Below the pieces are notes generated by a model. The model was not told the DNA's origin, did no database searches, and saw only the letters and a program-made list of their open reading frames with translations. A program made the position numbers and the translations under genes. DNA of 64,000 nucleotides. It comes from Armatimonadota bacterium (GTDB lineage Bacteria > Armatimonadota > Fimbriimonadia > Fimbriimonadales > Fimbriimonadaceae). This document shows, one piece after another, positions 32,624-44,197 of the stretch. The stretch's first letter is position 1; each line of letters begins with the position of its first letter. The stretch covers positions 473,153-537,152 of the forward strand of contig JAFDWU010000002.1 of NCBI GenBank assembly GCA_018268315.1, given 5' to 3'.

Positions 32624-32986
32624 CTATTTGTCTCCTTGCAGGCTAGTTGCCTGGGATTTGGGTTGAAGGTTGTGCGCTTCGCGAACGCGGCTTTCCGCCT
32701 GACGCAGAATGTCGCGCGCAAACTGTTTGTATAGGACATCGCCAATTCCAAGCTGGCTCGACTTACTGGCGTTCTCCGCCATCGTCTGATCCATCATGTC
32801 CTTGTAGATATCGCCGCCGAAGCTCTTTCCGAAGAGGTCGGGATGCTTGCCCTTCCGCATCTCGGCAAGCATGTTCTTCAGGAACATCGCCTCGATGTTT
32901 TGGGTCGCTCCCCTTAGCTTCTTCAGGTCGTTTCCGGCCGCCGATGCAATCGTGGCCGCTTGGGCTATTGGGCTAAAGCTGCTCAT
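32624..32986 (-). CDS. flgJ: Rod-binding protein FlgJ (N-terminal domain only)
   Basis: This 120-residue protein carries the rod-binding domain: EAMFLKNMLAEMRKGKH, then GDIYKDMMDQTMAENASKS and GIGDVLYKQFARDIL. There is no C-terminal peptidoglycan hydrolase domain as in E. coli FlgJ; single-domain versions are common outside Gammaproteobacteria, so another hydrolase must open the wall. It overlaps flgI by four bases. Confidence 0.9.
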   Translation of the reverse strand: MSSFSPIAQAATIASAAGNDLKKLRGATQNIEAMFLKNMLAEMRKGKHPDLFGKSFGGDIYKDMMDQTMAENASKSSQLGIGDVLYKQFARDILRQAESRVREAHNLQPKSQATSLQGDK

Positions 32987-34194
32987 TGCAATTCAATCCT
33001 TGCCTTGAGGGCGCCCTGCTGGCGCAAAGCCTGCAGGATAGAGATGATCTCCGTCGGCTTTAACTCAAGCGTTTGGAGAATTCGGCTGAGATCAGCCACC
33101 GTGGTGTTCGGCGGAATCATGGCGACCTTGGCGGTGTCTTGATCTGCGCGAACGGTGGTTTCGTTTACGACCGTGGTCTGGCCGCTCGAAAACGGATTTG
33201 GCTGGCTCACAATCGGCTCTTGCTCAATCTTGATGCTGAGACTGCCGTGAGCGATCGCCGCCGGGCCAAGGCGAACGTTGCCGCCGATAACGATGGTGCC
33301 GGTGCGCTCGTTGATCACGACCTTCGCCTCGATGTCGGCGAAAACCTTAACCGATTCAATCAGGCTCATCGCCTGAACCGGAGTCATGCCTTCCGGCAGA
33401 TTCAAGCAGATCGTCGCACCGTCTTCGGCATCGGGCGAGAAAGCTGGGTATGCCTGAGAAATCGCCTGCGCCACGCGGTTTGCGGTGGTGAGGTCCTCTG
33501 AATCAAGCTCCAGATACATGCGGCGACCGAAGATGGTCTTCGTAGGAACAGAATCTTCAACAATCGCTCCGCTCGGGATTCGGCCAACGGTGACGTGGTT
33601 TCGCTGAACGCTGTTGCCGGAGGAGCTTGCGTTGAATCCGCCAATACTCACCGCGCCTTCGGCGACGGCGTAAGCGTGCTCCTTATCCCCGGCCGCGTAA
33701 AGCGGGGTTTGGACAAGGGTGCCGCCCTGCAAACTCTTGGCATCGCCGATAGAGCTCACTCTAACGTCAATCGTCGTTCCTGGCTTAACAAATGGCGGCA
33801 GCTCGGCGGTAACCATCACGAGAGCCACATTCTTCGTCTCAAAGGTCGCCGGATTGCTGATAGTGCCCCAATCCTTCAAGAGGTTGGAAAGAAGCGTCAT
33901 CGTCATCGGCGTCTTCTTGGTGTCGCCGGTGCCTTCAAGGCCCATGACCAATCCAAAACCCGTCAGCTGGTTGCTTCGAACACCACGGAACCGGGCAATG
34001 TCCTTGATGCGCACTTCAACGCCGGCTTCCTCAGCGCGAGACAGCGCCTTGGAATCGAGCCGGATGCCCAAGGGCTTCGGCTCAGCTGGCTTAGTTTGCG
34101 CTTGCGGCTGGCTCACAGCTCCCGGAGCGCCTTGCTGAGCCGGAAAACCGGTTGCAGCAGCGAGAAAAACTAGGGTGAGAGTTGAGAGTTTCAT
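32983..34194 (-). CDS. flgI: Flagellar P-ring protein
   Basis: This 403-residue periplasmic protein has a signal peptide (about 1-20), a Gln/Pro-rich stretch (about 21-45) that is longer than usual, then the conserved FlgI core: RIKDIARFRGVRSNQLTGFGLVMGLEGTGD (opening), VSSIGDAKSLQGGTLVQTPL, and the C-terminal 'TTVADLSRILQTLELKPTEIISILQALRQQGAL'. It assembles around the rod in the peptidoglycan layer with FlgA as chaperone. It abuts flgH. Confidence 0.95.
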   Translation of the reverse strand: MKLSTLTLVFLAAATGFPAQQGAPGAVSQPQAQTKPAEPKPLGIRLDSKALSRAEEAGVEVRIKDIARFRGVRSNQLTGFGLVMGLEGTGDTKKTPMTMTLLSNLLKDWGTISNPATFETKNVALVMVTAELPPFVKPGTTIDVRVSSIGDAKSLQGGTLVQTPLYAAGDKEHAYAVAEGAVSIGGFNASSSGNSVQRNHVTVGRIPSGAIVEDSVPTKTIFGRRMYLELDSEDLTTANRVAQAISQAYPAFSPDAEDGATICLNLPEGMTPVQAMSLIESVKVFADIEAKVVINERTGTIVIGGNVRLGPAAIAHGSLSIKIEQEPIVSQPNPFSSGQTTVVNETTVRADQDTAKVAMIPPNTTVADLSRILQTLELKPTEIISILQALRQQGALKARIELQ

Positions 34195-34785
34195 TTAGAA
34201 CAACCACTCCAAGATTCGAGAGAAGATGCCCCGCCGCTGCTGGTTCGCAATCTGGCCCTTGGCATCCACCTTGATTTCTGCGTTCGCAATGTTGGAGCTA
34301 AGAACCGTGTTGTCGGAGCGGATATCGTCCTGGCGGACGAGGCCGGTGATCAAGAGATTCTGGTTCTCCTTATTCACCCGCACCCAGCGAACGCCTTCGA
34401 TCATGAGCACGCCGTTCGGCATCACCTTCTTCACCGTCACCGTCATTTGAGCGGTTAGATTGCCGGTTTGGGTGCTGCTCCCATCGCCCTTATAGCTGCT
34501 GGAGTTATCTAGGCCAAGCGACTTGAAGAAATTTGTGAGCACCGGCACATTGATGTTGCCAATGTCGGTCTTCTCAGTTCGGCTTGTGCTGGTGGTCGCG
34601 CTGAAGTTTGCCGACGAGCTTTCATTGATGATCACCGTCAGCAGATCGCCCTCATGTTTAGCAACGCGATCGAGCAGCGGATTCGTATAGCAGTGCTTGG
34701 GCCACAACGAGCCGGGGTTGTTGTCGTCAGCCTGCGCAAGCAGCACAGACGGCGTCACAGCTAAGAGTAGAAGCAGTTTCTTCAT
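34195..34785 (-). CDS. flgH: Flagellar L-ring protein
   Basis: This 196-residue protein has a signal peptide (about 1-18), and the family pattern 'GDLLTVIINESSSANFSATT', 'MTVTVKKVMPNGVLMIEG' and 'ITGLVRQDDIRSDNTVLSSNIANAEIKVDAKG'. The usual lipobox cysteine at the signal cleavage site is not evident (VLLAQA instead), so this FlgH may not be lipidated. It indicates an outer membrane. It overlaps flgA by four bases. Confidence 0.94.
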   Translation of the reverse strand: MKKLLLLLAVTPSVLLAQADDNNPGSLWPKHCYTNPLLDRVAKHEGDLLTVIINESSSANFSATTSTSRTEKTDIGNINVPVLTNFFKSLGLDNSSSYKGDGSSTQTGNLTAQMTVTVKKVMPNGVLMIEGVRWVRVNKENQNLLITGLVRQDDIRSDNTVLSSNIANAEIKVDAKGQIANQQRRGIFSRILEWLF

Positions 34786-35963
34786 AGTTGAACCTCAACA
34801 ATGCCGACGGCAACGAGCTTGCCCTGCAAGGTGGCGCCGGTATCGGTGGTAACGGAAACGGGTTGTCCGACGAAGGCGTTGTTGCGGGCGTGCCCGCCAA
34901 TCTCAACCGCCGCGCCGTTAAGCTTGATGAGAACCTTCACGATCTCACCGGACTGGACCTTGCCCGCCGCGGAATCGAAGGTGAGGACGACAAATCGAGA
35001 GTTGAAGCGTTTGCCGTCGACCAGCACGGCAACGCCGGCATTGACGCCGTTCGCTGTCTGGTTCAGGTTGTCAATCTCAAAAGTTGCGTTGCCCTTCGGC
35101 GCTTGGAAATCGGGCGTCGATCGCGGCTCGATGAGAGGGGCTTTTATGTTGAATCGCTTCTTTGCCTCCTCGCGAACAAGATCAACGAACTTGGCGGCAG
35201 GGATAACCTGACAGTCGCGCTTAACCTCGACCGAAGGCGGCATCTGGATGGAAATCTTATCGGTGGTGAATCCTGCCGCTCGCAGGCGAGCATAGACCCA
35301 GTTCTGGCCGAGCCGGCGGGCTACTCCAACTGCGGGAACGTCGCCCAAATCGATTGGGCCGAACGCCTTTGCGTGAGGACCGGATATATCCGCGATATCA
35401 GCGATGGTGATCCGATCGCCATCCATCGTCGTAGTCGCGTGAAATACGATCTGATCCTGGCTTGACGGCGCGATAACTGTCTTGACTTCAGTTTTCGCAG
35501 GGGCTTGCTTAACCGGTTCAGGTTTCTTGACAGGCTTGGTCACGGTGACCATCGGCAAGTTAGCCTTCGGCGATTCCGGCGCAGCCTGCAAGTTATCGAT
35601 CCAACCGGCGGTTTCGCTAGGGTAAGCGAGATTCGGACGATCCTGAGCAGCAAACAGTCCTGAACCAAGCGGCTGCAAGGAACTGCTGTTGAACTGCGCA
35701 AGGACAATGCGGCCAACGGTGACCTCGTCTTCCTTCACATCGCCGTTCTTCTCAATCTTCACGTGCGACAGATTGCTGCACGTAACTTCAGGAAAGAAGA
35801 TCGAGCCCTTCTGCCCGCCCAGCCGGTGGTCGATCACCTGGAGGGAAAGGTTCTTGGCGAACACGATCCTCCCCGCTTGGAGCAAACGGAAGTAGCCCGG
35901 TCCCGCCACCGTGAGTTCACGCGGTGACGTTGCGGTAAGTAGAAGAAGAGCGAAAGTAGTCAT
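34782..35963 (-). CDS. flgA: P-ring assembly chaperone FlgA fused to a rod-protein-like domain
   Basis: At 393 residues this protein is well above usual FlgA length. Residues about 165-393 form a normal FlgA: ITIADIADISG, 'RRLGQNWVYARLRAAG', the SAF-type strands, and the end 'FVGQPVSVTTDTGATLQGK'. Residues about 14-122 instead read like the D1 domain of FlgG/FlgF: PRELTVAGPGYFRLL (compare PTDLAIQGQGYFQVQ in the flgG product next door) and VTVGRIVLAQFNSSSLQPLG with SGLFAAQ (compare TTIGQITIATFSNPAGLTRLG with HNLYAAG). A Lys/Pro linker (131-160) joins the two. The D0 helices of rod proteins are absent, so it should not polymerise. The short hydrophobic N-terminus suggests export. It is coupled to flgG (TAATG overlap) and flgH. 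Confidence 0.85.
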   Translation of the reverse strand: MTTFALLLLTATSPRELTVAGPGYFRLLQAGRIVFAKNLSLQVIDHRLGGQKGSIFFPEVTCSNLSHVKIEKNGDVKEDEVTVGRIVLAQFNSSSLQPLGSGLFAAQDRPNLAYPSETAGWIDNLQAAPESPKANLPMVTVTKPVKKPEPVKQAPAKTEVKTVIAPSSQDQIVFHATTTMDGDRITIADIADISGPHAKAFGPIDLGDVPAVGVARRLGQNWVYARLRAAGFTTDKISIQMPPSVEVKRDCQVIPAAKFVDLVREEAKKRFNIKAPLIEPRSTPDFQAPKGNATFEIDNLNQTANGVNAGVAVLVDGKRFNSRFVVLTFDSAAGKVQSGEIVKVLIKLNGAAVEIGGHARNNAFVGQPVSVTTDTGATLQGKLVAVGIVEVQL

Positions 35964-36751
35964 TAGCGCTTGAGCTGGCCCACGGTCTGCAGCATTTCGT
36001 CTGCGGTCTGAATGGCCTTAGAGTTAACTTCGTAGGCTCGCTGAGCCACGATCATCTTCACCATTTCCTCAACGACCTGAACGTTCGAACCTTCCACGAA
36101 ACCGGCTTCGACAGAGCCGAATCCGGTTGAACCAGGGTTGCCCACTTGAGGATCACCGCTTGCACCGCCAGCGGCATACAAGTTGTGACCAAGTCGGGTG
36201 AGGCCAGCGGGGTTCGAGAAAGTGGCAATCGTAATCTGCCCGATAGTAGTCGGTGAAGACTGCCCGGGAAGCACTGCCGTCACCAAACCGCTGCCGCTAA
36301 TGCTGACTGCAGTTGAACCGGCGGGAATCTGTATCGAAGGGATGACTTGGTAGCCATCGTTGGTAACGACCTGTCCCGTTGAATCCAGCTTGAAGCTTCC
36401 GTCTCGCGTGTAGCCGGTTGAGCCATCTGGCATCTGAACTTGGAAATAGCCCTGACCCTGGATCGCAAGATCGGTGGGGTTGCCGGTCGATGTGAGCGGT
36501 CCCTGACCCTCGAATGCAGAGTTCACCGCAAACTTCGAACCGAGGCCGATTTGCACTGCGATCGGGCTTGAGGACGAAGCACCGGTACTGGCGCCAGAGG
36601 CGCGAACGGTCTGATAAACGATATCCTGAAACTCAGCGCGCTGAGCCTTGAAACCGTTGGTGTTTACGTTCGCCAGGTTGTTCGAAATCGTATCTAGGTT
36701 CTGCTGCTGAGAAATCATTCCCGTGGCAGCAGTGGTTAAACTGCGCATCAT
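35963..36751 (-). CDS. flgG: Flagellar distal rod protein
   Basis: This 262-residue rod protein has the N-terminal D0 helix with SNNLANVNTNGFKAQRAEF, a D1 domain with DLAIQGQGYFQVQMPDGST, and the C-terminal VEGSNVQVVEEMVKMIVAQRAYEVNSKAI signature. Length and motifs fit FlgG precisely. Stop codon overlaps the flgA start (TAATG), giving coupled translation. Confidence 0.95.
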   Translation of the reverse strand: MMRSLTTAATGMISQQQNLDTISNNLANVNTNGFKAQRAEFQDIVYQTVRASGASTGASSSSPIAVQIGLGSKFAVNSAFEGQGPLTSTGNPTDLAIQGQGYFQVQMPDGSTGYTRDGSFKLDSTGQVVTNDGYQVIPSIQIPAGSTAVSISGSGLVTAVLPGQSSPTTIGQITIATFSNPAGLTRLGHNLYAAGGASGDPQVGNPGSTGFGSVEAGFVEGSNVQVVEEMVKMIVAQRAYEVNSKAIQTADEMLQTVGQLKR

Positions 36752-36868: not shown

Positions 36869-37594
36869 TTACTGGTTGAGGCTTTGGATCAGTCGTTGCG
36901 AGAGATCGTCCTGTTGCTGGATCGACTTCTGCGCGAGTTCAAATTGTCGGTTCAAAGTGATGAGTTCCACCATTGAACTTACGGCGTTGACGTTAGAGCC
37001 TTCGAGCGCGCCAGGCGTAACCGTTGCTCCGGTAGAAGGCGCGGCGTTCGAGCTTGTATAAAGGTTCTGCCCTTCTTTGATGAAGGATCCCGTGTATATG
37101 CCAAGGGTGCCGACCACTTTGTCGTCGGCAGTGATCGCCCCGGTAGGGTCGATCTTGATCTTCGCATTCGGTGAAAGTGTGATGGGCTGCCCGCTGCTAT
37201 CCAGCACGGCGTCTCCAGAGTTGTTTACAAGCTGCCCTGCTTGGCTAATTTGGAACGCGCCGTCACGGGTGTAGCGAGTACCGCCCGGGGTTGCTACCGA
37301 AAACATCGTGTTAGGATCATTCAGGGCGACGTCAAGCGAGCGCCCAGTCTGGTTGATCGAGCCTGCTTCGAAAGACGTGTACTGTCCGGCGGCGGCGGGG
37401 CCGTAGCCCACGGAGCCAATCGGCTTACCCTGGCCGGAATTTGCGGCAAGCTGCTGCTCAAGCGTATCGTTAAACGCCAGAGTATCTCGCTTAAAACCGG
37501 TGGTTGAAACGTTCGCCAAATTGTTGGCGGTAACGTCCATCCACTGTTCCATCGAGGTCATCCCCGATGCTGCGGCATAAATTCCACGGTTCAT
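36869..37594 (-). CDS. flgF: Flagellar proximal rod protein
   Basis: This 241-residue FlgF/FlgG-family protein has NRGIYAAASGMTSMEQWMDV, NNLANVSTTGFKRDTLAF and a C-terminal 'LEGSNVNAVSSMVELITLNRQFELAQ' segment. It is shorter and more divergent than FlgG and precedes flgG, so FlgF is the better name. GGTGGG is just upstream of the ATG. It is the first gene in the flagellar run; the 117-base gap to flgG holds no gene. Confidence 0.9.
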   Translation of the reverse strand: MNRGIYAAASGMTSMEQWMDVTANNLANVSTTGFKRDTLAFNDTLEQQLAANSGQGKPIGSVGYGPAAAGQYTSFEAGSINQTGRSLDVALNDPNTMFSVATPGGTRYTRDGAFQISQAGQLVNNSGDAVLDSSGQPITLSPNAKIKIDPTGAITADDKVVGTLGIYTGSFIKEGQNLYTSSNAAPSTGATVTPGALEGSNVNAVSSMVELITLNRQFELAQKSIQQQDDLSQRLIQSLNQ

Positions 37595-37681: not shown

Positions 37682-40600
37682 TTACTTGCCAACGTGGGGA
37701 TATGCGGGAATCTTAATCTTCCTCGGCCCCTGCTTTTGCAACTGATCCAGCAGATACTTGACCGCTTGCTCCAGCTGCGGGTCCTGACCCTTTGCGATGA
37801 GGTCTGGGCGGGCGTCAACATCAATGTCGGGATCAATGCCTTTATTCTCGGCAATCCACTCACCAGATCGGAAGTCAAACGTTCCGAATTGAGGGGATGT
37901 AATTTGTCCGCCATCAATGAGGTTGAGCACAAAGAAGTAGCCCATTAGCCCGCCCCACGTTCGCTTACCCAGCAGCGGCCCCAGTTTATTCTCGCGGAAC
38001 AACCAAGGAAACATGTCGCCACCGGAGCCAGCGAACCCATTGATCAGCATCACCTTGGGTCCAGGAATTTCAAATCGAGGGACGGTGCTGATTGCGGAGT
38101 TTCGATATTCAAGGCCAGAGAACGACTGCCGCTGAAGCTTCTCTATGAAGAAAGATGGGAAGAATCCTCCTCCGTTGAAACGCTCATCCACAACAATCGC
38201 TTCCTTTCCTGATTGAGAATAGAGGGCCTTTGTGAATTCAACAATGCCCTCCTGAGCCGTATTTGGGACGTGCATATAGGCAAGACGCCCACCCGAAAGC
38301 TTATCAACCAACTTGCGATTTGCTTCGATCCACTCCGCGTACCTTACCGTTGCCTCGCTGCCTATCGGCTTGACGACAACTTTTCTTGCTCCCTCAATGC
38401 TTGGCTTATCATTGATTGTCAAAGTAACGTATTGACCAACCTTGCCCATAAGAAGCAGCCCCGGTGGATTCATTCGAGTTACCGGTTTCCCATCGATAGC
38501 AAGCAAGTATTCGCCGTCCCTCACGTTGATTCCGATCTGGCCCAATGGACCGCGATGCTGTTCGTCGTCGCCAAATCCGCGGTAGATCTTGCTTAACTGA
38601 GCGGTATCTCCATTCCAGGTGATATCGACCCCCAACTGCCCAACAGGCACAGGATTCAGTAGCGAGCCGTATTCCTTTGCTGGTGCGGGATAGACATAAG
38701 CGTGACCGGTCCCAAGCTCGCCCTGGAGCATGCCCATGACATAGTCTAAGTCCGAGCGGTGACCAACTTGAGGAAGGAGCGCCGCGTAGTTGTCGCCCAT
38801 CGCCTTCCAATCGATTCCAAGCATGTTCTTGTCGTAATACTGGTCCTTCTCAAACCTCCATGCTTCCCAGTACATCTGCTTCCATTCGGCACGAGGATCG
38901 ACGGTTGTTGCCACTCCGCTTGTGTCCACTCGGCCTTCACTTGGTGTGATATTCGGATGGATATCGGTTACGCAAAGAGCATTAGATGGAGTCACATAGG
39001 CGACCTTTGTCGCGCCGGGATTCATGCTGAATTGCTCGCTTGCGGGCATGATCGTTGTTGATTGGCGCGTGGCAAAGTCGAACTTCGTGAGCATGCCATT
39101 TGCCACATAGAACACGGCATTGTTCCCGCCGATTGCTTGCCCATACTGCCCGGCAGGCATTGGCAGAACCGCTATGCGTTGCTGAATGCCATCAAGGTCG
39201 ACCCGCCCATCTTTTGTCGTCGTTGCCTTGGATTCAGGGGCGCCCGCTTCATCTTCTATCGGCGGCTCAAGAGGGTTCTTGGTGTCGCCTGTAAGCGCCA
39301 TCACGTAAATGCGCTCACCAAGCGAAGTGGTTGTAATTTGTATGTCCGCGCTAAGCTCCGGTTGCACGGTTCGAGCCGACACAAAGTACAGATATTTGCC
39401 GTTCTGGTCGAATGACACTCCACCGTCGGCAAAGTAACCCTCACTTACTTGGTTCAGCTTACGGCCGACAACGTCGTATAGGTAGATAATGGACTTGGTG
39501 CTGTTAACTGAAGCAGTTATTGCGATCCACTTGCTATCTGGCGAAATATCCAGCGCACCGTAGCCGAACTCCGTCTTCATCACCTCGGTTTCAGCGCCGG
39601 TCTTTGAATCAACTAGGAGGAGCCTCTGGTTCGTATCCTGAACCAAGAAAGACTTCCCGTCTGGCGACCAAATGAGACTTGTAATCGACCCGCCATCGTG
39701 GCTCGAAACCCTTCGCGCCTCTCCTCCTGTAGCAGGGATAACATAGATCTGATCTGAGCCTGACTCATCGGAAATAAAGGCCAGTTCCTTCCCGTCCGCA
39801 GACCACTGCACCGATTTTGCGCGCGCGCTAGGGTGGGAATACAAAACCTTCGTCTCGCCCGACTTGGCAGGAATAGAGAAGATAATTCCGCGCGCTATAC
39901 CGGCAACTCTAGTTCCACTTGGGGAGATCGATATTGAGGAGAGTTCCTCGCCCATGCGGCGGTAATAGGGCCGCGCCGTCACGTCGTCGGTTGCAATCTT
40001 TGGCGCAAGCTCGCTGATTACTCCGGTTCCAATGGAGAATGCGTAAAGACCGCCATTGCGCTCATAAACGATTTGCTTCCCGTCGGTTTGCGCCCACTTC
40101 ATGTCGTGGTCGCTGAAATTCGTCAACTGAGACGTCTTGTTGCTGGAAGAGTCGTACTTGAACAGATTGACGGTGCCGAGATTCTTGTCGCTAAGGTAGT
40201 AAATATCGTTGCCAATCCACATTGGCCGCCAGGCGTTTTCGCGGCCATGGTCCAGCTCCCGATAAGCATTGTTCTTAAGATCGTAGATTGAGATAACACC
40301 CTGGCTCCCGCCACGATAGCGCCTCCAGTTGAACCTGTCACTGGTTTGTCGGCAATAGGCCACCTTCTGTCCATCAGGCGAATACGATCCCTCGCCAAAC
40401 TCCTGGATCGCGGTCGGCTGACCGCCACCGACTTGCGGATCGATCGTCCAAAGCACCGCCTTCCGGGGAGTAAAGCTGCCGTGAGTCGTTCGGTAGGCGA
40501 TCTTTCCATCCGGAGTCCAGCCCGCAACTTCATCCACTTCAGGATCGAAGGTCACTCTTCTAGGCTCCCCACCCTCGGCGGGCATAACGTACACGTTCTG

Positions 40601-40861
40601 AGGGCCATCATACGAAGCAGTGAACGCGAGCCACTTTCCATCTGGAGAGAAATGGGGGAAAGCTACTATTCCAGCACGGCTCGTCAACCTTCGGGCCATC
40701 CCGTCGCCGCTAATATCGGACGTCCACAAGTCGCCCGCATAGACAAAAACAAGCTGGTTTCCGCTCACGGCAGGGTGGCGAAGCAGCTTCAAAGTGCCGG
40801 CTTGGCTAAGGGCTGACGCAACGACGAAGAGGCTGGCGAGGCTAAAAGTTCTCAGGTTCAA
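37682..40861 (-). CDS. Exported tricorn-type S41 protease, paralog A
   Basis: This 1059-residue protein has a signal peptide (ending ALSQAG), an N-terminal beta-propeller of 'W/FSPDGKWLAFTA' blades, a second propeller, a short PDZ (GPLGQIGINVRDGEYLLAIDG) and a C-terminal S41 core with Ser946 in AGSGGDMFPW, His720 in GTGHAYV, and ENKGIDPDIDVDA. These match the tricorn layout and Ser/His catalytic set. The residue before His720 is Gly where tricorns have Ser. The TTG start at 40861 is chosen because GGAGG lies nine bases upstream and because it aligns with the start of paralog B; a TTG six codons earlier lacks this. Exported tricorns probably degrade oligopeptides in the periplasm. Confidence 0.88.
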   Translation of the reverse strand: MNLRTFSLASLFVVASALSQAGTLKLLRHPAVSGNQLVFVYAGDLWTSDISGDGMARRLTSRAGIVAFPHFSPDGKWLAFTASYDGPQNVYVMPAEGGEPRRVTFDPEVDEVAGWTPDGKIAYRTTHGSFTPRKAVLWTIDPQVGGGQPTAIQEFGEGSYSPDGQKVAYCRQTSDRFNWRRYRGGSQGVISIYDLKNNAYRELDHGRENAWRPMWIGNDIYYLSDKNLGTVNLFKYDSSSNKTSQLTNFSDHDMKWAQTDGKQIVYERNGGLYAFSIGTGVISELAPKIATDDVTARPYYRRMGEELSSISISPSGTRVAGIARGIIFSIPAKSGETKVLYSHPSARAKSVQWSADGKELAFISDESGSDQIYVIPATGGEARRVSSHDGGSITSLIWSPDGKSFLVQDTNQRLLLVDSKTGAETEVMKTEFGYGALDISPDSKWIAITASVNSTKSIIYLYDVVGRKLNQVSEGYFADGGVSFDQNGKYLYFVSARTVQPELSADIQITTTSLGERIYVMALTGDTKNPLEPPIEDEAGAPESKATTTKDGRVDLDGIQQRIAVLPMPAGQYGQAIGGNNAVFYVANGMLTKFDFATRQSTTIMPASEQFSMNPGATKVAYVTPSNALCVTDIHPNITPSEGRVDTSGVATTVDPRAEWKQMYWEAWRFEKDQYYDKNMLGIDWKAMGDNYAALLPQVGHRSDLDYVMGMLQGELGTGHAYVYPAPAKEYGSLLNPVPVGQLGVDITWNGDTAQLSKIYRGFGDDEQHRGPLGQIGINVRDGEYLLAIDGKPVTRMNPPGLLLMGKVGQYVTLTINDKPSIEGARKVVVKPIGSEATVRYAEWIEANRKLVDKLSGGRLAYMHVPNTAQEGIVEFTKALYSQSGKEAIVVDERFNGGGFFPSFFIEKLQRQSFSGLEYRNSAISTVPRFEIPGPKVMLINGFAGSGGDMFPWLFRENKLGPLLGKRTWGGLMGYFFVLNLIDGGQITSPQFGTFDFRSGEWIAENKGIDPDIDVDARPDLIAKGQDPQLEQAVKYLLDQLQKQGPRKIKIPAYPHVGK

Positions 40862-40970
40862 ACGTAGGTTCCTCCACAAGGGTGAGACTCCACGTTACCA
40901 AACCGAATATGCGTCGATGGACCGAAGGCCCAGGCTCAGACCGACAGTTTGTGCGAACTTGCAAAGAGCA

Positions 40971-41014: not shown

Positions 41015-44000
41015 TTACTTCCCGACTTTGGGGAATTTCGGCAAGATGAGCTTTCTCGTACCCTGTTTCTGCAACTGGTCGAGCAAATACTTAACCGCCT
41101 GCTCAAGCTGAGGGTCTTGACCCTTCGCCATCAAATCCGGCCGCGCATCCACATCGATATCCGGCTCAACGCCGTTGTTCTCCGCGATCCACTTGCCGGT
41201 TCGGAAGTCGAACAAACCAAACTCGGGCGCGGTGACGTTGCCACCATCGATCAGCTCAACTCCGCCGCTGATGCCAACAAGTCCGCCCCAAGTGCGCGTG
41301 CCCATCAGCGGTCCGAGCTTGTTCTCGCGGAACAGCCATGGGAACATATCGCCGCCAGACCCTGCGTATCCGTTGACAAGCATCACCTTCGGCCCAGGAA
41401 TCTGGAACTGAGGGGTGATGAACGGTCCGCTGTTGCGAACGACGGCGCCAGCTATCGCCTGGCGCTGAAGCTTCTCGATGAAGAAGGTGGGAATGTACCC
41501 ACCACCGTTGAATCGCTCGTCGACAATCAGAGCCTCTTTGTTCGGCTGGGAATAGTACGCCTTGGTGAATTCAACGATGCCTTCTTCAGCCGTGTCGGGC
41601 ACGTGCATGTAAGCGATCTTGCCGCCCGAAAGCTTATCTACAAGCTTGCGGTTGGTCTCAATCCAATCGGCATACCGCAGCTTCACTTCGCTTGCGATAG
41701 GCTTAACGACCACTTTGCGCGCGCCGTCCATGCTCGGCTTGCTGTTCACCGTAAGTGTTACCTGCCGGTCTGCTTTACCCAACAGCAGCGACTCCGGCGG
41801 GGTCACCCGAGTTACCGGGTTCCCATCGATTGCAAGCAGATACTCGCCATCCTTCACGTTTACGCCGAGTTCGCCGAGAGGGCCGCGAGTTGCTTCCTCA
41901 TAGCCGAATCCGTGCAGGATGTGGGCGAATTTCGCATGGTCGCCTTCCCACGCAAAATCAGCGCCAAGTTGGCCGATCGGAACCGGATTGGGAACAGGAG
42001 CGACCTCTCCGCCTGAAACGTACGCATGGCTAGTCCCAAGTTCGCCAATGAGCATGCCCAAGAGGTAGTTCAGGTCGGAGCGATGACGTACCTGGGGGAG
42101 CAAGGAAGCATAGTTATCGCCGATTGCCTTCCAGTCCATGCCAAGCATGTTCTTGTCGTAGAAGTGATCCTTCTCGTACCGCCAAGCTTCCCAGAACATC
42201 TGCTTCCACTCAGCGCGCGGATCAATCATCGCTGATACGCCGCCGGTATCAACCTTGCCTTCGCCAGGCGTGATGTTCGGATGAACGTCGGTCACGCACA
42301 GTTGCTTGCCAGGCGCGAGGTAAGCGATCTTTGTAAACGTGGGGTTGACGCTGATTTCCGGGCTTAACGGAATGATCGGCGTTGACTGCTTCGTCGCAAG
42401 ATCGAACTTCGTGATCGTGCCGTTGGAAACGTAGATGACGCCGTCCTTACCACCCAGTGTCTGCCCATATTCACCGGGAGGAATTGGCAATGCTGCCACT
42501 CGATCCTGGATTCCATCGAGATCAACCTTCATGTCCTTGCTCTTTGGTGGCTCAGCGGCAGGGGTGGCGGCAGGCGCGCTTGCTTCGTCATCCGCAGGAG
42601 GATTAAGCGGGTTGGTCGCGTCCTTGGCGAGCGGGATCATATAGATTCTCTCGCCGAGGGAATCGATGCTGATTTGCGGGTCCCCTCCACGCGTCGGGTG
42701 CACCGTTCTGGCCGACACGAAGTAGAGATACTTGCCGTTCTGGTCGAAGGATGCGCCTCCATCGGAGAAGTAGCCTTCGCTCACCTGAGTCAGCTTCTTG
42801 TTAGCGACATCGTAAAGGAAAATCGCGCTCTTTGAGCTATCGGTTGCCGCAGTGATGGCAATCCATTTGCTATCAGGCGAAATATCCGTAGGGCCGAATC
42901 CATAGTCAGTCTTCATCACCTCGGTCTCTGCCCCACTTGCGACATCAAGCAGAACAAGATGGTTCTGAATGTCCGAAATCAGGATCGATTTGCCGTCCGG
43001 TGACCACCCAAAGTTGTCAATCGCAGCCCCGGTGTGATTTGAGACCTTCTTGACGTCCCCTCCGTTTGGGGACATGGTGTGGATTTGGTATGACCCTGAC
43101 TCATCGGAAAGGAAGGCGACCTGCTTTCCATCGGGCGAGTACTGCACGTTCTTCGCTCGTGAGCCCGGATGCGAGTAGATAACCCTCGTCTCACCAGCCT
43201 TAGCAGGAATGCTAAAGATCATTCCGCGTGCCACCGCTGCCACTCGAGCGCCGCTTGGCGAAATTGCGAGCGCCGTTAGTTCATTCCCCATTCGACGGAA
43301 GTAAGGCCGTGCCGTCACTTCATCGCTGGCGACCTTTGGCGAAACTTCGGTTACGGCTCCGGAACCGATTGCGTAAGTGTAAACACCACCATTGCGCTCG
43401 AATACGATGTTCTGACCATCAGTTTGCGCCCACTTCATGTCATGGTCGTTGAAGTTTGTAAGCTGCTTCGTCTGCCCATTCGACGAATCGAACTTGTAGA
43501 GGTTTACTGTGTTTAGGCTCTTATCGCTGAGGTAGTAGATATCTTTGCCAACCCACATCGGTCGCCAAGAATTCTCGCGCTCATGGTTGAGTTCGTGGTA
43601 AGTGTTGTTCTTCAGATCGTAGATGGAGATCACACCCTGGCTGCCGCCTCGATACCTGCGCCAGTTGAAGCGATCGCTGAGCTGCCGGTTGTAGGCAACC
43701 CTGCTGCCATCCGGTGAGAACGAACCTTCGCCAAATTCGATGATCGAAGTGGGTTGAGCGCCGCCAACCTTGGGATCGATCGTCCACAGTCTCGCCTGGC
43801 GGTTCGTGAAGCTGCCGTGAATCGATCGGTAAGCAATCTTCCCGTCCGGCGTCCACCCTGCCACCTCATCAGGCTCTGGATCAAAGGTAACCCTGCGCGG
43901 CTCGCCGCCTTCAGCGGGCATTACATAAACGTTTTGGGCGCCATCGTAGGCAGCCGTGAATGCCAGCCACTTTCCATCCGGCGAAAACCTCGGGTAAGCG

Positions 44001-44197
44001 ACGATCCCCGCGCGGCTGGTGAGGCGACGGGCAAAACCGCTGCCGCTCATGTCCGATGTCCACAGATCTCCGCCGTAAACAAACACAAGCTGATTTCCGT
44101 TTACAGCCGGGTGCCGAAGAAGTTTTAAACTTTCAGCTTGGCTGTACGCTGTTGAAAGGGCAAAAAGGCCAGCAAGGCCGAGGGCTCTCAGATTCAA
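41015..44197 (-). CDS. Exported tricorn-type S41 protease, paralog B
   Basis: This 1060-residue protein aligns throughout with paralog A immediately downstream: signal peptide (ending AYSQAE), two propellers, PDZ, and S41 core with Ser947 in AGSGGDMFPW, Ser723-His724 in GTSHAYV, and ENNGVEPDIDVDA. The full tricorn tetrad environment is kept here. The insert in the first propeller-to-PDZ region (PAATPAAEPPKSKD) is Pro/Ala-rich and absent in A. It starts at a TTG with GGAGG seven bases upstream. Each gene has its own terminator, so they look like a tandem duplication with separate control. Confidence 0.9.
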   Translation of the reverse strand: MNLRALGLAGLFALSTAYSQAESLKLLRHPAVNGNQLVFVYGGDLWTSDMSGSGFARRLTSRAGIVAYPRFSPDGKWLAFTAAYDGAQNVYVMPAEGGEPRRVTFDPEPDEVAGWTPDGKIAYRSIHGSFTNRQARLWTIDPKVGGAQPTSIIEFGEGSFSPDGSRVAYNRQLSDRFNWRRYRGGSQGVISIYDLKNNTYHELNHERENSWRPMWVGKDIYYLSDKSLNTVNLYKFDSSNGQTKQLTNFNDHDMKWAQTDGQNIVFERNGGVYTYAIGSGAVTEVSPKVASDEVTARPYFRRMGNELTALAISPSGARVAAVARGMIFSIPAKAGETRVIYSHPGSRAKNVQYSPDGKQVAFLSDESGSYQIHTMSPNGGDVKKVSNHTGAAIDNFGWSPDGKSILISDIQNHLVLLDVASGAETEVMKTDYGFGPTDISPDSKWIAITAATDSSKSAIFLYDVANKKLTQVSEGYFSDGGASFDQNGKYLYFVSARTVHPTRGGDPQISIDSLGERIYMIPLAKDATNPLNPPADDEASAPAATPAAEPPKSKDMKVDLDGIQDRVAALPIPPGEYGQTLGGKDGVIYVSNGTITKFDLATKQSTPIIPLSPEISVNPTFTKIAYLAPGKQLCVTDVHPNITPGEGKVDTGGVSAMIDPRAEWKQMFWEAWRYEKDHFYDKNMLGMDWKAIGDNYASLLPQVRHRSDLNYLLGMLIGELGTSHAYVSGGEVAPVPNPVPIGQLGADFAWEGDHAKFAHILHGFGYEEATRGPLGELGVNVKDGEYLLAIDGNPVTRVTPPESLLLGKADRQVTLTVNSKPSMDGARKVVVKPIASEVKLRYADWIETNRKLVDKLSGGKIAYMHVPDTAEEGIVEFTKAYYSQPNKEALIVDERFNGGGYIPTFFIEKLQRQAIAGAVVRNSGPFITPQFQIPGPKVMLVNGYAGSGGDMFPWLFRENKLGPLMGTRTWGGLVGISGGVELIDGGNVTAPEFGLFDFRTGKWIAENNGVEPDIDVDARPDLMAKGQDPQLEQAVKYLLDQLQKQGTRKLILPKFPKVGK

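Follow-up and report, generated by a model that had tools for sequence, protein, structure and literature searches.

The window, by which we mean the whole stretch of 64,000 nucleotides analysed here, carries on its minus strand five flagellar genes in the order flgF, flgG, flgA, flgH, flgI (Table 1). The open reading frame at 34195..34785 we take to be flgH from its position and sequence. The start ATG of flgA overlaps the stop of flgG, flgH comes after flgA, and flgA adjoins the genes of the P and L rings (flgG-flgA-flgH-flgI), the position that it shares with known FlgA genes. The product of flgI is its presumed partner. The initial annotation had placed at 34782-35963 a long FlgA with a rod D1-like domain, and the place is right: the open reading frame codes on the minus strand for 393 residues, and its product is the P-ring chaperone FlgA, extended by an N-terminal D1 domain.

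Table 1. Flagellar genes of the window and the parts of the FlgA protein
Feature	Coordinates	Strand	Basis or remark
flgI, P-ring protein	32983..34194	(-)	phmmer against solved P-ring proteins, best E 1.1e-74
flgH, L-ring protein (presumed)	34195..34785	(-)	position and sequence
flgA, FlgA with N-terminal FlgG-type D1 domain	34782..35963	(-)	393 aa
FlgA residues 168-393, FlgA proper	34785..35462	(-)	3vjp and 3frn matches; TIGR03170 at 335-392
FlgA residues 127-167, Pro/Lys-rich linker, predicted disordered	35463..35585	(-)	pLDDT <50 at 126-163
FlgA residues 12-126, FlgG-type D1 domain without D0 and L-stretch	35586..35930	(-)	structure match and TIGR02488
FlgA residues 1-13, short hydrophobic stretch, presumed Sec signal	35925..35963	(-)	sequence; no Lys/Arg near start
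flgG, distal rod protein	35963..36751	(-)	TIGR02488 E 2.4e-101
flgF, proximal rod protein	36869..37594	(-)	TIGR02490 E 5.7e-52, 2.1 bits short of 178.5-bit cut-off

An added N-terminal domain in FlgA

Profiles identify both ends of the protein. NCBIfam TIGR03170 (FlgA C-terminus) matches residues 335-392 (E 6.2e-6, 26.2 bits against a cut-off of 54.65) and TIGR02488 (FlgG) matches residues 12-106 (E 4.6e-5), both scores lying under the curated whole-protein cut-offs. The alignment of the N-terminus to the neighbouring FlgG, first noted from the letters of the sequence, is real: besides the TIGR02488 match, BLASTP pairs residues 9-133 with that protein at 26% identity (E 2e-4 in a single comparison). 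A Pfam scan did not detect the D1 domain in this member. At the level of the family, for which we aligned 38 FlgA frames carrying the extra domain, TIGR02488 matches 31 of the 38 (window included; best E 9.5e-15), PF22692 (FlgE/F/G D1) matches 27 (best E 2.1e-13) and TIGR03170 matches 30. With the window FlgG as query, the FlgA of loci L035, L054 and L052 is retrieved at E 5e-18, 4e-13 and 8e-10, and, judged by sequence, the D1 of FlgA in family f5 is still close to FlgG.

The predicted fold agrees with the profiles. We modelled the window protein and 16 relatives with AlphaFold2 without templates; the window model has a mean pLDDT of 82.4, with residues 1-11 and 126-163 below 50. A Foldseek search of the PDB (E ≤0.001) returned seven matches, five of them rod or hook chains and two Salmonella FlgA. 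According to VIA-align, residues 12-126 of the model superpose on the FlgG D1 domain, residues 90-218 of 6jf2_A (Z 16.8, 2.1 Å, 115 residues, 24% sequence identity in the structural alignment). Folded alone, the domain has a pLDDT of 90, and the 21 PDB entries that it matches at Z 11.1-16.2 all come from flagellar rod or hook assemblies; the next three, at Z 2.2-2.5, are unrelated. Residues 12-126 are thus predicted to form a complete FlgG-type D1 fold, slightly larger than the 14-122 first proposed. Chance similarity between the FlgA N-terminus and FlgG is ruled out by the family profile matches and the structure.

The remainder of the model is FlgA. Residues 334-393 superpose on Salmonella FlgA 3vjp (Z 10.8, 1.5 Å, 60 residues), and residues 169-393 span Thermotoga maritima FlgA 3frn loosely (Z 8.8, 8.2 Å); the fold of the C-terminal half is that of FlgA, the rest being matched loosely. 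Within this loosely matched part, residues 168-251 are similar to 3g74 (Z 9.9), which is a Eubacterium ventriosum protein with no assigned function, and for residues 251-330 the matches are hot-dog-like, at Z 6.9 or less.

Two sets of comparisons define what has been added. Known FlgA proteins (TIGR03170, PF13144; 3tee, 3vjp, 3frn) are like residues 168-393 and share the gene position and the C-terminal fold, whereas here a FlgG-type D1 and a disordered linker stand in front. According to an excerpt of PMC4895218, the FlgA of T. maritima likewise carries an additional domain at its N-terminus, named D0; the match to that protein (3frn) begins at window residue 169, behind the rod-type domain. 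With FlgG, FlgF and FlgE (PF22692; 6jf2, 7cbm) the protein has the whole D1 fold in common, FlgG-type by profile score, but it lacks D0, the L-stretch and the neighbour motifs, and its D1 is near neutral in charge. The initial annotation had the D0 helices missing, and they are: PF00460 and PF06429, both present in the neighbouring FlgG and FlgF, are absent from FlgA, and the structural match is confined to FlgG residues 90-218.

The D1 domain comes after the presumed export signal and before FlgA proper, and the sequence suggests that FlgA-D1 is exported to the periplasm. With FlgA start sites picked by rule, 36 of 40 D1-bearing FlgA proteins have a hydrophobic start without Lys or Arg at residues 2-7; FlgA proteins without D1 (for example at loci L018 and L033) have an ordinary signal that opens with MK or MR.

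Distribution and origin of the domain

The fusion is a conserved arrangement in the order, Fimbriimonadales, and not a one-off. A search of the window genome and 60 related genomes gave a match in 56 of the 61. A profile built from the 38 aligned sequences matches 99 of the 113 genomes of the order, some through FlgG only, and D1 and FlgA lie in one open frame in 75 of the 113 (counted from the listing): 69 in family f1, five in f5 and one in f3. A few are cut by contig ends, and one f1 genome (G021) has D1-FlgA as a fragment. FlgA without D1 occurs in two f1 genomes of one genus (G035 and G126), whose relative G006 has the domain, in one f5 genome (G046), and also in listed genomes of f2 and f4; 12 f1 and two f5 genomes have no profile match at all. 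FlgA, FlgH and FlgI are retained where D1 has been lost (loci L018, L113 and L114 of G035 and G126, and L033 of G046).

Elsewhere in the phylum, D1 is absent from the FlgA candidates at 46 loci, which represent part of the genomes outside the order that had matches; eight further loci outside the order have no match to the FlgA core, and one more was a filler. With 0 of 46 loci, the idea that D1 is typical of FlgA throughout Armatimonadota is rejected.

A scan of named genomes with family-specific patterns found 16 loci, 14 of them titled Fimbriimonadaceae, Fimbriimonas, Chthonomonas or Armatimonadetes, one titled simply 'bacterium' and one Methanoregulaceae archaeon. The last (JADZEW010000010.1, L057) holds this bacterial flagellar locus and is probably a mislabelled MAG. 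The same scan with the window protein as query confirmed nothing, and a plasmid search gave no match, which has no bearing.

In a tree of D1 sequences from 40 FlgA, 42 FlgG and 39 FlgF proteins, all 40 FlgA-D1 fall on one branch (SH-aLRT 100), many other forks being open on the few columns available (137). A FlgA-D1 profile finds FlgG at a median E of 4e-17 (42 sequences) and FlgF at 6.7e-4 (41 sequences). FlgF is accordingly disfavoured as the source, and the flgG product is likely to be kin of the donor. On a FlgG-FlgH-FlgI tree of 60 genomes the D1 trait needs three changes, which fits one gain (on a branch with SH-aLRT 96) and two losses. In all but one of 39 D1-bearing loci (38 of 39) flgA starts -1 to 16 bp from the end of flgG, and because flgA stands directly behind flgG, duplication in place of the D1 part of flgG would be the simplest origin. 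Most likely, as far as sequences can tell, D1 was gained once, beside flgG, in a common ancestor of three of the order's families.

In two close pairs of genomes dN/dS is 0.077 and 0.068 for D1, and 0.100 and 0.115 for FlgA proper. For the linker, measured over 30 codons in the first pair, it is 0.41. In two more distant pairs synonymous sites are saturated and dN/dS is unreliable. D1 is under purifying selection in the two close pairs. It is therefore very improbable that D1 is a functionless relic of the flgG duplication, for although it lies directly behind flgG and has been lost in two lineages, it is in frame in 75 genomes, is no less constrained than FlgA proper in the two unsaturated pairs (0.07-0.08), and has a confidently predicted fold.

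Residue changes relative to FlgG

We compared 40 FlgA-D1 with 42 co-resident FlgG sequences, numbering FlgG as in PMC8298488, taken as the Met-counted chain minus one; D, D and E then fall at 109, 154 and 203. The losses include stretches that are taken to hold rod neighbours in FlgG. FlgA-D1 has lost the T, D and G of the YTRDGSF motif (the Tyr and the basic residue are retained), the 180-190 stretch and S198-G199, all near-invariant in the 42 FlgG; at positions 180, 183, 188, 190, 198 and 199, 41 of the 42 share the same residue, and FlgA-D1 shows no conservation. That all residues of these stretches are true contacts is partly inference. According to an excerpt of PMC6681337, D1 domains in the rod make few direct contacts with one another, and much of the holding falls to the L-stretch, whose tip has been suggested to meet G183 and S197 of a neighbour. 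G183 is among the residues lost; position 197 varies in FlgG too and is uninformative.

The protein thus shares with the rod-hook proteins the D1 domain itself, by profiles and fold, and lacks their N- and C-terminal D0 helices, their neighbour-holding stretches and T-x-D-G. Because D0, the L-stretch and the FlgG neighbour motifs are gone, FlgA-D1 should not build rod.

The acidic residues have fared differently from one another. D109 and D154 are described in part of PMC8298488 as highly conserved acids of the rod surface. An acid stands at the D109 position in 27 of 40 FlgA-D1 (35 of 42 FlgG) and at the D154 position in 29 of 40 (12 of 42 FlgG); 36 of the 40 have an acid at one or the other, and 20 at both. 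The window D1 itself has Ala and Asn at these positions, and in six f5 and f3 members, which are more FlgG-like, the acids are rarer (2/6 and 3/6). Other acids fade: that at 117 falls from 42/42 in FlgG to 15/40, and that at 132 from 37/42 to 11/40, with glycine 133 kept in 36/40. Since acid 132 fades though glycine 133 stays, turn shape alone does not explain the acids that are kept.

The third rod acid, E203, is lost in all 40 FlgA-D1, and position 200, acidic in 33 of 42 FlgG, is basic in 35 of 40. Mean net charge moves from -6.6 in FlgG to +0.5. New basic residues appear at 26 (37/40 against 6/42 in FlgG), 32 (27/40 against 0/42), 85 (33/40 against 3/42) and 109 of FlgA (35/40, where FlgG is acidic in 33/42). 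With E203 lost, position 200 reversed and the charge shifted, the face of FlgA-D1 is no plain copy of the rod.

Candidate partners and role

An excerpt of PMC4895218 states that the C-terminal domain of Salmonella FlgA binds FlgI and that this FlgA is required for the P ring, and calls unknown both the delivery of FlgI to the nascent flagellum and its release by FlgA. FlgI K63 and K95, according to part of PMC8298488, lie near the acidic rod surface and are needed for P-ring formation. By alignment both lysines are present in the window FlgI and in 32/37 and 31/37 D1-bearing genomes; in genomes without D1 they are found in 13/13 and 3/13, with Arg at 95 in 10/13.

We also compared evolutionary distances across 32 genomes. 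D1 and FlgG distances gave a partial r of 0.20 (permutation p 0.03, uncorrected, one of five tests), D1 and FlgI distances 0.05 (p 0.32), and D1 and FlgH distances 0.04 (p 0.34). As a discriminator between FlgI and FlgG the correlation is weak and leans toward FlgG. In many members acids remain at two of the rod positions that face FlgI, which makes FlgI at least as likely a partner.

We favour, tentatively and short of calling it probable, the reading that FlgA-D1 is a periplasmic surrogate of the rod that handles FlgI. It is preferred because an isolated D1 would make few lattice contacts but offers the outer face of the rod, with two acids often kept. FlgA proper would bind FlgI in the manner of Salmonella FlgA, while D1 on its tether would cover or present the rod-facing side of FlgI, stop FlgI from closing into rings away from the rod, and release it once the real FlgG rod competes. 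In its boldest form, FlgA-D1 would hold FlgI by its rod side and hand it over by competition, such that rings form only where a rod exists; to this form we give less weight than to the general reading. Against the surrogate stand the Ala and Asn of the window D1 and the rarity of the acids in f5 and f3, as well as the charge shift, the loss of E203, and D1-FlgI distances that do not co-vary.

Its close rival places D1 on the rod rather than on FlgI. The initial annotation had proposed that a FlgA with a rod-like surface could dock on the distal rod and place P-ring subunits there. A version in which the new basic residues of D1 fasten the FlgA-FlgI complex onto the outer surface of the growing FlgG rod, and P-ring subunits are placed there in this way, is somewhat unlikely, in our view, but it draws on several observations: the conserved basics at 26, 32, 85 and 109 could suit a rod whose surface is described as acidic in part of PMC8298488, and the D1-FlgG distance correlation points the same way. 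The new basics may instead form internal salt bridges, residues 32 and 85 are mostly non-basic in f5 and f3 (basic in 2/6 each), and the stretches with which FlgG serves its rod neighbours are lost. The earlier interpretation is thus partly supported: the fusion of FlgA to a rod domain without D0 is established and conserved, by profile, by predicted fold and by the survey of the phylum, whereas the loss of residues taken to serve rod neighbours speaks against docking through FlgG-like lattice contacts.

Less likely again is that D1 is a handle, serving to stabilise or space FlgA, or to bind FlgH, peptidoglycan or some other factor specific to the order, in which case its rod origin would say little about its present partner. 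The drift of its charge and motifs far from FlgG speaks for this, as does the long N-terminal extension of FlgI in family f1 (below), where the whole neighbourhood of the P ring is altered. The acids kept at two FlgI-facing positions in many members speak against it, and there is no positive sign of another partner, the FlgH distances included.

D1 would be helpful rather than essential. Two lineages have lost D1 and keep the genes for FlgA, FlgH and FlgI, so D1 is not essential everywhere, and these lineages are natural knock-outs for comparison. If the surrogate reading is true, this is a chaperone with its own model of the shaft, linking ring and rod in one bacterial order. The fusion would also be a case in which part of a polymerising axial protein has been put to new use as a soluble module of the periplasm.

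In pilus assembly by donor-strand chaperones, a periplasmic chaperone lends a subunit-like part to the assembly subunit. FlgA-D1 would be like these only if it does act as a rod surrogate, and then by analogy alone. What is new in FlgA-D1 is the domain architecture; the chaperone is a known one, and the system is not new in kind. We found no description of a FlgA-rod fusion in the literature searched (titles and abstract openings, with few subscription journals), and domain databases may already show the D1 and FlgA combination. A natural FlgA with a rod-derived domain makes the delivery and release of FlgI concretely testable by binding.

Neighbouring genes

In family f1, FlgI is extended near its N-terminus by a charged stretch, about 25-70 residues long (judged by eye; residues ~20-60 of the window protein), which lies after the signal and ahead of the conserved RIKDI start. 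In f5 and f3 this stretch is shorter, and in f2 and f4 it is almost absent. The D1-less f1 genome G035 (L018) retains it, so the extension is not strictly tied to D1.

The signal region of the window FlgH has no cysteine and hence no lipobox, whereas FlgH of Salmonella is a lipoprotein; in a crude scan, FlgH of many relatives is similar in this region.

Two neighbouring open reading frames, at 37682-40879 and 41015-44197, are alike (1065 and 1060 aa). Both open with a signal followed by ...LKLLRHPAV.GNQLVFVY.GDLWTSD. They look like a tandem duplication, presumably of a tricorn-type peptidase.
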